Both the position numbers and the translations under genes were made by a program. From the NCBI GenBank assembly GCA_007693965.1, contig RECQ01000033.1, positions 62,001 to 126,000 on the forward strand: 64,000 bases of DNA. Reading direction: 5' to 3'. The stretch comes from Phycisphaeraceae bacterium. GTDB lineage: Bacteria; Planctomycetota; Phycisphaerae; Phycisphaerales; UBA1924. This document shows positions 9,020-60,345 of the stretch, in pieces (positions within the stretch are counted from its first letter, which is position 1; each line of letters opens with the position of its first letter). The notes beneath the pieces were generated by a model that saw nothing but the letters and a program-made list of their open reading frames with translations, did no database searches and was not told the DNA's origin.

Positions 9020-9070
9020 CACCACAGAGGCACAGAGACACGGAGAGGGGAGAGGGGAGTGGGGAGTGGG
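9020..9070. repeat. Period-7 tandem array A (downstream of carB)
   Basis: Degenerate heptamers run through here, first of the type CAGAGGC/ACAGAGA/CACGGAG, then GGAGAGG repeated and GGAGTGG repeated. The array starts 16 bp after the carB stop. A similar sequence in inverted orientation lies at 9868-9935, so the two bracket the lower-GC island between them. Confidence 0.85.
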
Positions 9071-17710: not shown

Positions 17711-19177
17711 TCACTTCCCCACACAAAAACTCGCAAAGATCCGCCCGATCACATCATCCGGCGGCACCGCGCCCGCGATCTCGCCGATCGCGTCCAGGGC
17801 ACGGCGCATCGACTGGGCCGCCAGCTCGGCGCCAGACAGATGGCGCGACCCCGCATCCGGCGCCGCAAGCGATCGCGCCTCGCCCAGGCCCTCCCGGGCC
17901 CGCTCCAGGGCGCGCTGGTGGCGAGGCAGGAGCGTCATCGTCGCCGCGCCCTTGGAGGTCTGGGCCGCATCGGCGATGGCGCGGCGCAGGGCGCCGAGGT
18001 TCCAGCCGTCGAGAGCGCACACGGAGAGCGGGGAAGAGTTCTGAGTGTTGAGTTCTGTGTTCTGAGTTCTGTGTGCTGTGTTCTGAGTTCCGGGATCGGC
18101 GTTTCCGATTCCCGGCAAGTCCGCCTTGGTGCGCACGCGCAGTGTCGGTTTCTGTTCCGGCAGCGCGATGCCGAGCTGGAAGCGTCCGTCGGGGTCGCAG
18201 AGGATGAGGACGTCAGCGCGTTCGATCGCCTCGCGGGCGGCGCGCTGCGATGCTTCATCGGCGCGGGAGCGGGCGCCGATGGCCTCATCGAGGCCGGCCA
18301 GGTCCACCAGCCGCACGGCCAGGCCCGGCGCTGCGGCGTCCTGCGCCAGGTCCAGCGTCTCCTCGATCGCATCGCGCGTTGTGCCCGGCGCTTCCGACAC
18401 CACAGCGCGGCGCCGGCCCAGCAGCGCATTGAAAAGCGTCGATTTACCCGCGTTGGGCGGACCGACCAGCGCCACGACGGGCAGCGCATCGGACGATTCC
18501 GCCGCCCCGGCGCCGGCGAGCCGGCCATCAATTTCTTCCAGCAGCGCATCGAGTCGAGCCAGAAGATCGTCGGGCGAGATCGCCACCACATCTTCCTGGT
18601 CGGTGAAGTCGACGCCCGCCTCGACCAGCGCCAGGGCGCCGGCGAGCTCGTCCGCCATGCGCCGGTAAAGCGCCCCCACCTCGCCGGAGCGAAGTCTCGC
18701 TCCCGCATCGAGCTGCGCCTCGTTGGCGGCGCCGATCGTCAGCGCCACGCCCTCGGCCTGCTCGATGGTGAGCCGCCCGTTCAGGAATGCCCGGGCGGTG
18801 AACTCGCCGGGATCGGCGATGCGCACGCCCTCGATCGCCAGCAGCGCGCCCAACAGCCGCTCCAGCAGAGCCGGATTTCCGGGAAGTTGAAACTCGGCGC
18901 TGTCTTCGCCGGTGTACGACGACGGCGCCGCGAAGCGCACCAGCAGCGCGGGCAGCGAAGGCGGCTCAGGCGCCTCCACGAGCCCGAAGCGCGAGCGAGG
19001 GAATGAGACACGTACGCGCGCCACCCCGCGCTTCCACGTTGTGAGTTCCTGATTCCCAGAGTCGGTGACAATCGAGCGCACAACATCCGGCGTCGCCGAC
19101 CCGGAGATGCGGATCATCGCCCGCGCCGAGCGTCCCGACGCCGAGGCGACGGCGACGATGGTGTCGCCCTGGCGCAT
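17711..19177 (-). CDS. mnmE: tRNA modification GTPase MnmE (TrmE)
   Basis: 488 residues from the ATG at 19177. The N-terminal folate-binding domain includes [14 protein letters not shown] (about 84-96). The G domain has the P-loop GPPNAGKS (239-246), GTTRD (265-269), DLAG (292-295) and TKAD (350-353). The C-terminus is the conserved CVGK. With MnmG it installs the cmnm5 group on U34 of certain tRNAs. Two oddities: residues 58-67 ([10 protein letters not shown]) are encoded by a dispersed 26-bp repeat, and residues about 364-381 ([17 protein letters not shown]) are encoded by an in-frame heptamer array between the G4 and G5 motifs. The HGG motif usual after the SYTGED block is absent (QLPGN). 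The gene starts 1 bp after yidC ends. Confidence 0.93.
18036..18091. repeat. Period-7 tandem array C, inside mnmE
   Basis: Heptamers such as GTTCTGA, GTGTTGA and GTTCTGT are repeated; on the coding strand they read CAGAACT/CAGAACA/CTCAACA. Three heptamers equal seven codons, giving the periodic [17 protein letters not shown] peptide. It is the same sequence family as the intergenic arrays at 27190, 32793 and 49869. Confidence 0.9.
18978..19003 (+). repeat. 26-bp dispersed repeat, copy 2 (inside mnmE)
   Basis: ACGAGCCCGAAGCGCGAGCG followed by AGGGAA. It lies within the mnmE coding sequence and encodes [10 protein letters not shown] on the minus strand, in a strand/loop region of the N-terminal domain just before the SYTGED motif. 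Confidence 0.85.
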
Positions 19178-19178
19178 A

Positions 19179-21461
19179 TCACTTCTTCTTCCGGTCGCGT
19201 CCCTTGTAGGGGCTGCCTTCGCGCTCGCGTTTCTTCCTGAAGGGGTTTTTCGGCGCGGTGTTGGAGACCTGCTTGCGCCCGGGGCCCGGCCCGGCGGGAG
19301 CGGGCTTTTTGGGCTTGGGAGGCTCGAGGTCCATCTTGTCCACATGAGCGCGGATGTAGCGGCTCTCTGCGATGCCGAGCGCCGAGTTGGTGATGAAATA
19401 CAGCGCCAGGCCGCTCGGCGCGTTGTACATGATGACCGGGAACATCACCACCATCATGAACTTCATGATCTTCTGCTGCTGCGCCTGCTCCGGCGACAGC
19501 GCCGTGGTCGGTGGCGGCGTCAGGTATTTCTGCTGAATATAAAAGACCAGCCCCAGCAAAAGCGGAAGCACATTGAGCGATTCGATGGGTCCGAAGAGCG
19601 GGATGGTGAAGAGCGCCCGCCCGAAGTAGATGAACCGGTCCGGCGCGCTCAGGTCGGCGAGGAAGATCCAGTGCCCCGCCGAAACCGCCTGGAAGACGCC
19701 GAAGAACGCCGCCTCATGCCGCAGCTCAAAGGCGAAGTAGAGCATCGCGAAGAGCGCGATCCAGATCGGCGACTGCAGGAAGAGCGGCAGGCAGCCGAAC
19801 ATGCCGGAGAACTTCACGTTCTCCTCGCGGTACAGCTTGATCATCTCCTGCTGCATCCGCTTGGGATCGTCCTTGAACTTCTCGCGCAGCTTCTGCTGCT
19901 TGGGCGCGATGGCCTGCATCTGCTTGGCGAAGCGCATCATGCCGATCTGCGATTTGCGCGTCACCGGGTGCAGGGCGCCGCGGACGCACACCACCAGCAG
20001 CATGATGGCCAGGGCCCAGTCGCGCAGCAGGTAGTCGTGCATGAAGCCGAGGAAGATCATCAGCCCGCGGGCCAGCGGCTGGAAGGTGCAAAATGCGCAC
20101 GGCCCGCCGAAGTTGTAGAGCACCAGCAGGTCAAGCCGCACGGCCTCGAGCGATCGCTCCGCCGCGAGCTGACGCCGCCCCAGCGGACCGGCGTAGGCGC
20201 CGAGCGAGAGATCCAGGGTCTGTCCAGCCTCGACGGTGTTCACCGGACTGTTGAACTGCAGCGCCAGGACACGCTCGGGCCCGAAGCCCAGCACAACGCC
20301 GTACACCTCCTGCGCCTGCGTAAAGCGCCGATCCACGTGCTGACCTGCTGCGAACGAGGCCTCATCCACCAGCGGATGCACGGCGAAGGCGAAATATCGA
20401 TTCGTCAGCGAGGTCCACACCAGCTCCCGGCCCCGCTCGATCGTGTCCTCCGTGGGCCACAGCCGCTCCCAGCGGTTGGGATCGCGTTCGGCGCTGCTGA
20501 TCACCGAATCGCGCGTGCGAAGCTTGTTGTCGGTGTCGACGATCTGGCGCGAAGGATCCGAACGCTGATCGTGCAGGAATCCGAAGCGGATGCGCCGCTT
20601 GTCGCCGCCGTATCCCACCTCACCCACCGGCATGTCCACCGGTCCATACTGGTACCACTGGGCCTCGAGGGCCCGGTCGGTCAGATTTTCGAGCGTCTGC
20701 TCCAGCCTGATGGCGTAGGAGCCGGGCGTCACGCTGTAGCGCTTCACCACCCGGGCCACCGGCGCATCATCACGATCCACGATCATCGCCTCGAACTCGC
20801 CCGGCCCGACTTCGCTCCACACCGGCCGCGGCGCCCCCTCGGAGACGTCAGAGAACAGGTCGATGAATTCGCCGTCGATCTCAACGCCCAGACACGCCAA
20901 CGATGCGGCGGCGTAGCGCCGGCCGCGAATCTCGACGATTTTCCGCTCCTGGACCCGGTAGTTCTCCTCCCGGCGGATCGACTGGAAGTGGTGCGTCAGC
21001 GTGATCGCCTCGACGCCGGCGCCGAAGGGTGTGAAGGCCACCCGTACGTTGTGCCCAGAATCGGGATCGGTGTCGCCGATCGGCGCGGGATCCTCGGCGG
21101 CGACGGCGACGGGCCGCACCCGCAGGCCGCGGGGGTCCGTTGGCGACGGCTCATCGACGCCCGCGACGAGCGGATCATCCTCCCCGGGAACCACCCCGGG
21201 TTGATCCGGGTCAGTCTCGGGAGACACCGGCGTTGCGGGGGATGCGGGGCTGGCGGCGATCGGCCTTTCCGGCTCGATTTCCTCCCGCGGCTCGGGGGCC
21301 GTCGTCTCGGTGGGGGCTTGCTCCGCAGGCCTCTCCGCCGCAGGCGGGGGCGACGTCGGACGCATGGTCTGCACATAGACCGACACCACGACGCCGAAGG
21401 CCGCCAGGCCGACGATCAGCGGGACGAGAAGGCGCAGCGTCTTGTTCTTTTCGCGGGGCAT
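19179..21461 (-). CDS. yidC: Membrane protein insertase YidC
   Basis: 760 residues from the ATG at 21461 ([19 protein letters not shown]), which places the first transmembrane helix at about residues 9-27. A Pro/Glu-rich linker (30-115) leads to the large periplasmic beta-supersandwich domain (about 130-440, with [22 protein letters not shown] and [18 protein letters not shown]). The conserved C-terminal insertase core follows: [25 protein letters not shown], the [24 protein letters not shown] cytoplasmic hairpin, and the final helices (about 470-700). The tail is Lys/Arg-rich, as in many YidC proteins, and may contact ribosomes. It inserts membrane proteins with or without Sec. It is immediately upstream of mnmE, a commonly seen neighbour. 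rnpA and rpmH are not present here. Confidence 0.96.
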
Positions 21462-27185: not shown

Positions 27186-27189
27186 GGGA

Positions 27190-27288
27190 AGAGTTCCGAG
27201 TACCGAGTACCGAGTTCGAAGTACCGAGTACGGATACCGTCGATTCGAACTCAGAACTCAGAACTCAGCACTCAGAACTCAGCACTCC
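27190..27288. repeat. Period-7 tandem array E with an inverted centre
   Basis: The first half repeats GAGTACC-type heptamers, the second half ACTCAGA/ACTCAGC. GAGTTCGAA (27212-27220) and TTCGAACTC (27244-27252) form a perfect 9-bp stem with a 23-base loop, so the array can fold. It starts within 5 bp of the kinase stop and ends just before the next start. Confidence 0.88.
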
Positions 27289-27301
27289 TGTCCCCCCTCC
27301 C

Positions 27302-32792: not shown

Positions 32793-32826
32793 ATCTCAGA
32801 ACTCAGAACTCAGAACTCGGAACTCC
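32793..32826. repeat. Period-7 tandem array F
   Basis: ATCTCAG then AACTCAG repeated and AACTCGG, ending 5 bp from the stop of the acylphosphatase gene (minus strand). Unit sequence is the same as the second half of array E. Confidence 0.88.
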
Positions 32827-43285: not shown

Positions 43286-43358
43286 CCTCACCCACTTCAC
43301 CCTCTCACCCACTCACCCACTCACCCACTCACCGACTCACCCTCTCACCCACTCACTC
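43286..43358. repeat. Period-8 tandem array G at the phytase-like gene stop
   Basis: CTCACCCA repeated with variants CTCACCGA and CTCACCCT. The array runs into the stop codon of the minus-strand gene ending at 43353. It is the only array here with an 8-bp period. Confidence 0.88.
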
Positions 43359-44534
43359 CAATATCCGCAGCGCCGCGAACTGCGAGCCCACCTGCCCGTC
43401 GCGTCCGGCGTTGTCATCCGCCACCAGCAGGAGCAGCCGCCCGCCGCGGTCGTCGTCGATGGTTGGCCCCAGCGCCATGCCCTCGAAGTTTCCGACGTTT
43501 GTCAGTCCGAGCTCGCGCAGCGATGCGATGCGCCGCTTGCGCAAGACCGGCAACGCGCCATCCTCCTTCTGAGCATCCGACGAGCCGTCGATCAGAAAAA
43601 TCGTCGCGTCGTACAACCTGGGCGCCGCCAGGGATCGCTCCAGCGTCAGGATCCGACCATCCGGCAGCGCGTGCATCTCCGCCAGTGAATTGAAGCCGCC
43701 CAGCCCCAACAGCCCCCGTGGCGACGGCTCGGTCTTGTAGAAATACTGCCGCAGCACTTCGTGCGTGCGACCGTCGAACACCACCACCCGGCACAGCGCC
43801 CCGCGCTCGCGCGTCGCCTCGTCGCCGTCGATGGTCAGGGCCGACTCCGTCGCCGCCCAGATCTCCGGTCCGTCCTTCGTCTCGCGCCACGCGACCGATT
43901 CGAAGCCCCGGTTCTCTCTTGCATGCCACACGATTTCCTGCGGCGTCGGCAGCGTCATGAACCCGCCGTGCTCGCCATGCGCGAACCGCGCCACCGTCGG
44001 CGGCATTTCGTACCCGATGATCCAGCTCCCATCCGGCGCGATCGCGATCGCCTCCGCATCCTGAGCCGGGTGCTCCATGCCGATGGCGCGCACGAAGCGC
44101 ACGCGCAGCGCGGGAACCGGTTCGAGGCGCAGCTCCACCGCCAGCTCGACCACCTTCTCCGGGAGCGCCCCGTCGCTGACCGCCAGCCACGTCCCCGACT
44201 CTTCCCGATACGCCAGCCCGCTCAGCTCACCGACGCGCCCCGGCGCGTCCTCCGGCTCGGGGGGCAGCGTCGTCCACGCCAGCAGTTCGAGCGCTATGGG
44301 CTCGGCGCGCACAGCTTCGCCGTGCGCAGCGCACCCGCCAAGGCTCATCGCCAGCAGCGCGCTCCCACATGCCACTGCGCGAACCGCGCGTCCGGACCGA
44401 GGCTTCGTCGCGGACTCCTCAGCCTCGGCGTCTTTCTGAACGCTCCGTGTCTCGTGGGCGTCGCCGTCGCCGTCGCCGTCGCTTCGAGCGCGTTCGACGA
44501 TCGGCGACGGTGTCGCTCCTGCCCCATGCGTCAT
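43353..44534 (-). CDS. Phytase-like esterase domain lipoprotein
   Basis: 393 residues from the ATG at 44534, supported by GGAG 5 bases upstream and a 4-bp overlap with the BtuF-like gene. The lipobox LLAMSLGGC places the modified Cys at residue 68, preceded by a long unusual N-terminal extension with GDGDGD repeats and a segment (about 31-48) encoded by the 26-bp palindrome. The mature part matches esterase-like phytase domains: LSGLAYREESGTWLAVSD, DAEAIAIAPDGSWIIGYE, ENRGFESVAW, GLGGFNSLAEMHALPDGRILTLER, NFEGMALGP. A GTG at 44375 would remove the extension but lacks a ribosome binding site. Substrate unknown; likely anchored at the envelope. Confidence 0.8.
   Translation of the reverse strand: MTHGAGATPSPIVERARSDGDGDGDAHETRSVQKDAEAEESATKPRSGRAVRAVACGSALLAMSLGGCAAHGEAVRAEPIALELLAWTTLPPEPEDAPGRVGELSGLAYREESGTWLAVSDGALPEKVVELAVELRLEPVPALRVRFVRAIGMEHPAQDAEAIAIAPDGSWIIGYEMPPTVARFAHGEHGGFMTLPTPQEIVWHARENRGFESVAWRETKDGPEIWAATESALTIDGDEATRERGALCRVVVFDGRTHEVLRQYFYKTEPSPRGLLGLGGFNSLAEMHALPDGRILTLERSLAAPRLYDATIFLIDGSSDAQKEDGALPVLRKRRIASLRELGLTNVGNFEGMALGPTIDDDRGGRLLLLVADDNAGRDGQVGSQFAALRILE
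44397..44428. repeat. 26-bp palindromic repeat, copy 4 (inverted, expanded loop, in coding sequence)
   Basis: CCGAGGCT and AGCCTCGG are intact, but the loop is 16 bases (TCGTCGCGGACTCCTC), which equals the normal 10-base loop with TCG and CTC each duplicated. Both additions are 3 bp, so the reading frame of the phytase-like gene is kept. Confidence 0.8.
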
Positions 44535-49852: not shown

Positions 49853-49868
49853 TTGAATTTCGCGATCC

Positions 49869-49945
49869 AGCACTCCGCACTCGGAACTCGGAACTCTCCT
49901 CCTCTCCCCCTCAGCACTCAGAACTCAGAACTCAGAACTTTCCTC
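49869..49945. repeat. Period-7 tandem array H between gspE and gspF
   Basis: CACTCGG/AACTCGG-type units, a pyrimidine-rich middle, then CACTCAGAACTCAG units. It starts 16 bp after the gspE stop and ends 7 bp before the gspF start, so any gspF ribosome binding site must lie in the short TTCCTCCCTCCCC stretch, which is a poor match. Confidence 0.88.
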
Positions 49946-60287: not shown

Positions 60288-60299
60288 GCGACAATCTCT

Positions 60300-60345
60300 T
60301 CCCCATTCCCCATTCCCCATTGCCCATTCCCCATTGCCTCTTCCC
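60300..60345. repeat. Period-7 tandem array J between DUF486 gene and ilvE
   Basis: CCCCATT repeated with one GCCCATT, ending in GCCTCTT-type units. It abuts the ilvE stop at 60346 and starts 13 bp after the stop of the convergent DUF486 gene. Confidence 0.9.

Follow-up and report, generated by a model that had tools for sequence, protein, structure and literature searches.

An in-frame heptamer array in mnmE is probably one case of a dispersed family of heptamer palindromes in a Phycisphaeraceae genome

Several kinds of short bacterial repeat resemble the element considered here. Rickettsia palindromic elements (RPEs) and REPs are reported in frame within open reading frames (ORFs), including uvrB and a tRNA pseudouridine synthase gene of R. 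conorii, and the REP inserts described measure 20–30 residues (PMC3733652, PMC2229807, PMC10969869). The GGGAATC and GGGGAYT repeats of Xanthomonas and Nostoc are genome-wide and mostly intergenic, form 70 and 75 inverted pairs in two xanthomonads, keep the same polarity to the nearest ORF regardless of its direction, and most commonly comprise four units (PMC4692102). Direct repeats of TAACTGA in Beggiatoaceae, cyanobacteria and Bacteroidetes are likewise genome-wide and mostly intergenic, with some in ORFs, and are free of stop codons in the reverse orientation only (PMC4679880), while a survey of prokaryotic satellites found abundant bacterial families derived from heptamers and hexamers (PMC6749651). 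Here we describe a heptamer array inside the tRNA modification gene mnmE of a Phycisphaeraceae bacterium, found in a stretch of 64,000 nucleotides (the window; contig RECQ01000033.1, positions 62,001 to 126,000, forward strand), and conclude that it is one case of a dispersed repeat family in a known style, lodged within an already variable loop.

The gene lies at 17711..19177 on the minus strand. Its product matches the Pfam families TrmE_N, MMR_HSR1 and MnmE_helical, all three above cut-off, which identifies it as mnmE; the top two NCBIfam matches are also MnmE models, yet fall under their equivalog cut-offs. The start at 19177 was picked by codon score, and an alternative upstream start at 19345 is possible. 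At 18037..18092 (minus strand) the gene contains eight translated heptamer units, in order CGGAACT, CAGAACA, CAGCACA, CAGAACT, CAGAACA, CAGAACT, CAACACT and CAGAACT, which separate TKAD on one side from a VCALDG segment on the other, segments that we take to be the G4 and G5 regions. Of the 56 bases of the array, 49 agree with an ideal (CAGAACT)8, whereas the best match averaged 28.3 and stayed at 32 or below when 200 windows of 64 kb were simulated (first-order Markov model, both strands considered). TRF rows span 18036-18090 with scores of 57-78, and a 14-base double heptamer is matched 27 times in the window at up to three mismatches, compared with a mean of 2.3 in 100 shuffles. The array is real, and the observation made in an earlier note on this DNA is confirmed: a CAGAACT-type array, of the same family as those between genes, sits between TKAD and the next GTPase segment, in a frame that stays open through it to the CVGK end. 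That note had explained its tolerance by a 21-bp periodicity, three heptamers making seven codons; this does not hold, as the array of 56 bases is a multiple of neither 21 nor 3, and what preserves the frame is a net change of 19 codons from the median relative. The last heptamer is followed by a C/T-rich tail, CTTCCCCGCTCTCC (18023..18036, minus strand), similar to tails after many intergenic arrays. At the array's upstream edge a short inverted repeat, CCGGGAATCGG / CCGATCCCGG (18090..18115, minus strand), forms the sole stem in the predicted fold of this copy. That stem accounts for the z of -2.9 given by the DNA fold of 18031-18120; being a single arm, the mnmE copy has no long stem-loop.

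An alignment of MnmE proteins places the insert in context. The G4-G5 linker has 33 residues here. Relatives with an MnmE match numbered 60, in a search that brought up no genome of the same genus; the 29 with the highest scores were aligned, and their linkers measure 11-25 residues (median 14). None of these 29 linkers carries a heptamer array, and the insert of roughly 20 residues anticipated by the earlier note amounts to a net 19.

Beyond the window, exact matches to CAGAACTCAGAACT number 66 in the genome, spread over many contigs, and exact triple-CRGNACY matches number 294, with none for the reversed control in either case. The earlier description of the unit as CAGAACT is right for the commonest member (158 of 447 perfect units), while the family as a whole is degenerate and better written CRGNACY. 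Two- and three-unit patterns served to find arrays, whose places were taken from the matches listed, which represent part of the arrays of the genome; genes were called with a codon-score finder made for this analysis, whose start codons are approximate. The window and 34 further stretches picked for holding arrays make up 421.5 kb, a selection that carries no information on density, and contain at least 79 arrays among the matches listed. The polarity counts below use the 71 arrays that have at least three perfect units; 62 of these are intergenic and 9 lie inside genes, while about 86% of the sequence is called coding. An unselected 300 kb from six contigs held 2 arrays with three or more perfect units; the arrays are therefore not dense.

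Arrays also seem to change by slippage: of 334 pairs of adjacent units, 154 (0.46) consist of identical units, with 0.21 expected. Four perfect units are the commonest length (21 of 79 arrays). The five commonest units (404 of 447) contain neither GGG nor CCC; CCC occurs somewhere in 35 of 79 arrays, and runs of CAGAACC give one CCC per unit in a few of them. The excess of identical neighbours, twofold over expectation, also fits an alternative that we consider unlikely, in which slippage built each array in place, with the heptamer bias coming from the polymerase or from base composition, and the mnmE array grew within a tolerant loop. Mrazek's polymerase-footprint idea, as reported in two papers, lends itself to such a local birth (PMC4679880, PMC4692102).

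The arrangement of arrays around one another tells against local birth. Opposite-strand neighbours within 200 bp are in the order minus-plus in 18 cases and plus-minus in none (p = 8e-6). In each such pair both arms are directed outward, so that the region is a palindrome. Among 40 array-bearing intergenic regions, 15 have the minus-plus order, 22 a single array, and one each the orders plus-plus, minus-minus and plus-minus. DNA folding of seven stretches gave z values of -5.8 to -9.6 for five hairpins, of which four are from this genome and one is from a relative (G091). A further hairpin, in the window at 27186-27301, has a fold z of -2.4 and lies between two plus-strand genes: its left arm (27192..27233, minus strand) lies 6 bases past the upstream stop codon, its loop (loop B, GTACGGATACCGTCGAT) is at 27228..27244 (plus strand), and its right arm (27245..27286, plus strand) is 15 bases short of the following start codon. 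The idea that one arm was copied from the other by folding back was considered and rejected, the arms being unlike in unit variants (r 0.14 and 0.05, n=18).

Arrays also show a polarity relative to genes. The fraction of C is 0.53 in the 8 bases after the 71 arrays and 0.31 in the 8 bases before, and for 58 intergenic arrays with genes on both sides the nearer gene is on the 3' side in 47, on the 5' side in 10 and equally distant in 1 (p = 2e-6). Arrays within 15 bp of a gene end, or overlapping it, number 32 on the 3' side and 2 on the 5' side. The C-rich, outward 3' end thus tends to face the nearest gene end, start or stop alike, with stops often 2-11 bp away. Such polarity would be expected of palindromes with a constant inside and outside that occupy the short spaces between genes. 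The close fit to stop and start codons, together with the strong hairpins, would also suit a regulatory role, as terminators, protectors of mRNA ends or protein-binding sites at gene borders, with the mnmE copy a stray; same-direction gene pairs, moreover, flank 34 of 40 array regions and 125 of 190 array-free spaces (p = 0.02). However, arms are also found beside divergent starts (in 4 of 40 regions) and inside coding genes, convergent pairs, the expected place for terminators, show no enrichment (2 of 40 versus 29 of 190), and no Rfam family reached threshold in the window; we regard a regulatory role as very unlikely.

Loops provide the most direct view of how the elements spread. Loop A, GAGTCGGAAWTACTC, occurs in four hairpins with one base changed in one copy: two on contig C8, one on C70 inside trmB and one on C71. 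The loop GAGTCGGAATTACTC is common to C8:158606 (intergenic), C70:57619 (inside trmB) and C71:6936 (intergenic; one base changed), and the hairpin at C8:150952 carries GAGTCGGAAATACTC; a fifth loop A match, at C12:79590, is without arms and was not counted. The hairpins at C8:158606 and C70:57619 have 38 bases in common, including the order of unit variants. Loop B of the window is identical in a hairpin on another contig, at C23:23927, and is found nowhere else in the genome at up to two mismatches. As these identities lie outside the heptamer code, we take them to show that complete elements were copied to unrelated places, in one instance into a coding gene. Local birth is hard to reconcile with identical non-heptamer loops at unrelated sites, or with the presence of the same heptamers on many contigs here, yet of CAGAACT x3 in just 2 of 201 genomes of the order, the source genome included; the same triplet is also found in scattered genomes of many phyla (at least 114 stretches).

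The earlier note had treated mnmE as a lone unusual case. On the contrary, four other genes of this genome contain in-frame copies: nadA and trmB hold full hairpins, uvrB, like mnmE, a single arm, and a short-chain fatty acid (SCFA) transporter gene two arrays. SufB (L167) is among the 9 in-gene arrays and was excluded from the in-frame inserts, because the array probably precedes the true start (an ATG lies 7 bases after it, and SufB models begin at residue 41 or later). The single-arm inserts are read in the stop-free direction; CAGAACT arrays in the AGTTCTG orientation contain TGA. In uvrB the insert has 20 residues compared with the solved UvrB 2fdc, and lies a few residues before the conserved DESHVT. 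Of 36 uvrB loci, 3 had no motif in one frame and 33 were read, 11 of which, without the LLD anchor, went unmeasured. No CRGNACY array was seen by eye in the loop among 14 relatives whose loop DNA was inspected. One relative (L295, G006:C13:213400-216100) has, judged by eye, an in-frame palindrome with octamer arms, CTCGATCC, at the same uvrB loop. Because this loop is long and variable within the order, the uvrB element is marked by its heptamer sequence and not by its length. The same caution applies to mnmE: the varying lengths of both regions among relatives, with UvrB loops of 8-70 residues and MnmE linkers of up to 30, make insert length by itself weak proof of foreignness, and count in favour of growth in place.

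Similar arrays are widespread in the order. CNNNACT x4 is found in 68 of 301 genomes, with units that vary between genomes; some genomes share a unit and some hold several. The control CNNNCAT x4 is found in 59 of 301, also as inverted pairs. The constant ACTC tetranucleotide was thereby ruled out as a recognition site: the similar control frequency indicates that heptamer arrays are common in the order and that ACTC is not special. A reversed-string control for CNNNACT x4 is confounded, because CANNACT in another register equals TCANNAC. As a separate observation, the reversed-string control TCAAGAC x3 matches 28 times in G040, which apparently has a heptamer family of its own, CAAGACT.

Stretches from relatives were chosen for holding arrays, with L240 (G177) left out. 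In-frame inserts are found in three of these genomes: in G091 within recG (about 34 residues), priA, tsaC, an addB-like gene and a GTPase gene (L205) that is only TrmE-like, being under the MnmE cut-off; in G099 within acnA, atpG and genes for a GGDEF protein, a dehydratase-like and a rhomboid-like protein; and in G068 within a glycosyltransferase gene. The examined stretches of G108, G066, G117 and G143 contain no in-gene arrays. A gene end lies within 25 bp on the 3' side for 15 of 20 arrays in G068, G108, G117 and G143 together (arrays outside genes, with one in-gene G068 array scored as a miss) and for 3 of 4 arrays outside genes in G091; the corresponding count in G066 is 0 of 4, and neither G066 nor G099 lends support to the polarity. 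It may be added that several insert-bearing genes act in DNA repair (recG, addB-like, priA, uvrB) or tRNA modification (mnmE, trmB, tsaC), as do published REP-decorated genes; the loci concerned are L203, L206, L207, L208, L179, L186 and mnmE of the window. A further alternative is an artefact of assembly or binning. Repeats can collapse in a draft genome of 74 contigs such as this one, but the frame is open through the listed inserts, arrays occur on many contigs, and similar designs with other heptamers are present in other genomes of the order, which leaves an artefact hardly credible.

Taken together, these findings make it probable that the family consists of dispersed, slippage-prone heptamer palindromes that survive in frame in protein loops already variable in length. 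The mnmE array would then be one arm of this genome-wide family, that is, an element or half an element, the complete form of which would run 5'-purine tract-(AGTNCYG)n-loop-(CRGNACT)m-pyrimidine tract-3'. Beside the copying of whole elements, slippage seems to alter the arrays, and selection would presumably remove other in-gene insertions, so that the survivors keep the frame, read stop-free and fall in length-variable loops. A broader proposal, which we put forward tentatively and hold to be somewhat less than an even chance, is that self-dispersing heptamer palindromes with genome-specific units inhabit many genomes of the order, whole hairpins being copied to gene borders and to variable loops of repair and tRNA-modification enzymes, where slippage alters the length of the peptide. 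The same uvrB loop would then have received a heptamer array here and, in a relative, a hairpin built of octamers.

A number of observations weigh against the main reading. Eight neighbours within 200 bp are on the same strand, 22 of the 40 array-bearing regions have one array only, and one region has a plus array to the left of a minus array, spaced further apart. Direct copying is visible in two loop families only, with six members in total, and the arms of one hairpin are no more alike in unit variants than random arms (r 0.14, p 0.29, n=18). In G099 a gene end lies within 25 bp on the 3' side for just 1 of the 5 arrays located outside genes. As to the loops, the UvrB segment from LLDYF to DESHVT has 28 residues here, within the 8-70 of the 21 relatives measured, and the MnmE linker attains 30 residues in one relative, G018 (read separately and counted by eye), whose linker peptide has no heptamer-type repeat. 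For the mnmE copy, a lone arm that was found to share no loop with another element, the origin itself, by insertion or by local growth, is not proven. Finally, no target-site duplication has been defined, and no mobile enzyme has been tied to the elements.

One candidate enzyme is the REP-associated Y1 (IS200-like) transposase. Among the 26 genomes in which CNNNACT x4 matches at least ten times, 24 have a Y1_Tnp match, as do 169 of the remaining 275 (hand count, p = 0.001), a comparison uncontrolled for genome size and general load of mobile DNA. Against this, the array-rich drafts G017 and G131 are not among the genomes with a Y1_Tnp match. The end tags of REPs are not enriched either, GTAG being found at 2 and CGTC at 0 of 38 hairpin ends, compared with 0.025 and 0.138 of random 20-mers, and an 11-kb stretch around one of the four Y1 matches of this genome, a match with an internal stop, contains no array. 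A second Y1 gene adjoins uvrB (L179 3230-3574; G000:C35:144729-145073), with the uvrB array, some 1.3 kb off, the sole array listed nearby. Mobilization by this transposase appears quite unlikely.

Other repeats of the window complete the picture. Three further heptamer arrays, all intergenic or before a gene and on the plus strand, are a single array of four units at 32797..32824, one of three perfect units at 49861..49895, and one of four units at 49912..49939, which a C/T tract separates from a start codon 13 bases further on. Apart from these, a TTCCCCA array of about five units (60299-60335) lies between convergent genes that end 11-12 bases away on each side. An octamer array of CTCACCCA, about 8.6 units (43287-43356), runs into the end of the minus-strand gene 43353-44348, its C-rich strand directed at the stop codon as in the heptamers. 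At 9023-9070 a purine-rich array, with about four GGAGAGG units after units of CACAGAGA, begins 20 bases past a stop codon, its C-rich strand likewise directed at the gene end.

In comparison with known systems, the family would work like RPEs: short palindromes dispersed between genes and in frame in conserved genes. Full hairpins form long stem-loops (z -5.8 to -9.6 in five of the seven stretches folded), conserved genes carry in-frame copies (mnmE, nadA, uvrB, trmB and the SCFA transporter gene here; recG, priA, tsaC, atpG and acnA in relatives), and common sequence extends beyond the simple repeat, with loop A in four hairpins and loop B in two. A difference is that the arms here are tandem heptamer arrays whose unit varies by genome. 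Insert sizes of net 19 (mnmE), 20 relative to 2fdc (uvrB) and about 34 residues (recG of G091) may be set beside the 20-30 reported for REPs. Unlike REPs of the GTAG and CGTC super-families, however, the hairpins mostly have no such tetranucleotide within 20 bases of their ends (2 of 38 and 0 of 38).

With the Xanthomonas and Nostoc repeats the family shares genome-wide heptamer arrays (62 of 71 intergenic), inverted pairs (18 to 0), polarity to the nearest gene (47 of 58 nearer on the 3' side) and four units as the commonest length. In contrast to those repeats (PMC4692102), the five commonest units here have no GGG tract of the kind invoked there for quadruplexes, which suggests that quadruplex formation may not be needed for this layout, and hairpins and arms stand in frame inside core enzymes, some hairpins with a common loop. 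Genome-wide heptamer arrays, mostly intergenic and some within ORFs, are a trait held in common with the TAACTGA repeats, for which the accessible text describes no hairpin family (PMC4679880). Similarly, neither a palindromic arrangement nor dispersed in-frame inserts in core enzymes are described in the corresponding portions of the satellites survey (PMC6749651). Within the open-access literature, subscription papers being mostly outside the search, we recognised no report that places heptamer palindromes in frame within this group's core genes. Three features are new: heptamer arms combined with the copying of shared loops, hairpins that stand in frame within core enzymes, and a unit that changes from genome to genome. 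Owing to that change of unit, the order offers many cases in which to follow how repeats spread, why they halt within a few bases of codons and how foreign peptides come to be accommodated by core enzymes. Rickettsia is the best-known source of in-frame palindromes, and Xanthomonas and Nostoc are the best-known sources of heptamer arrays in inverted pairs; this family unites the two patterns.
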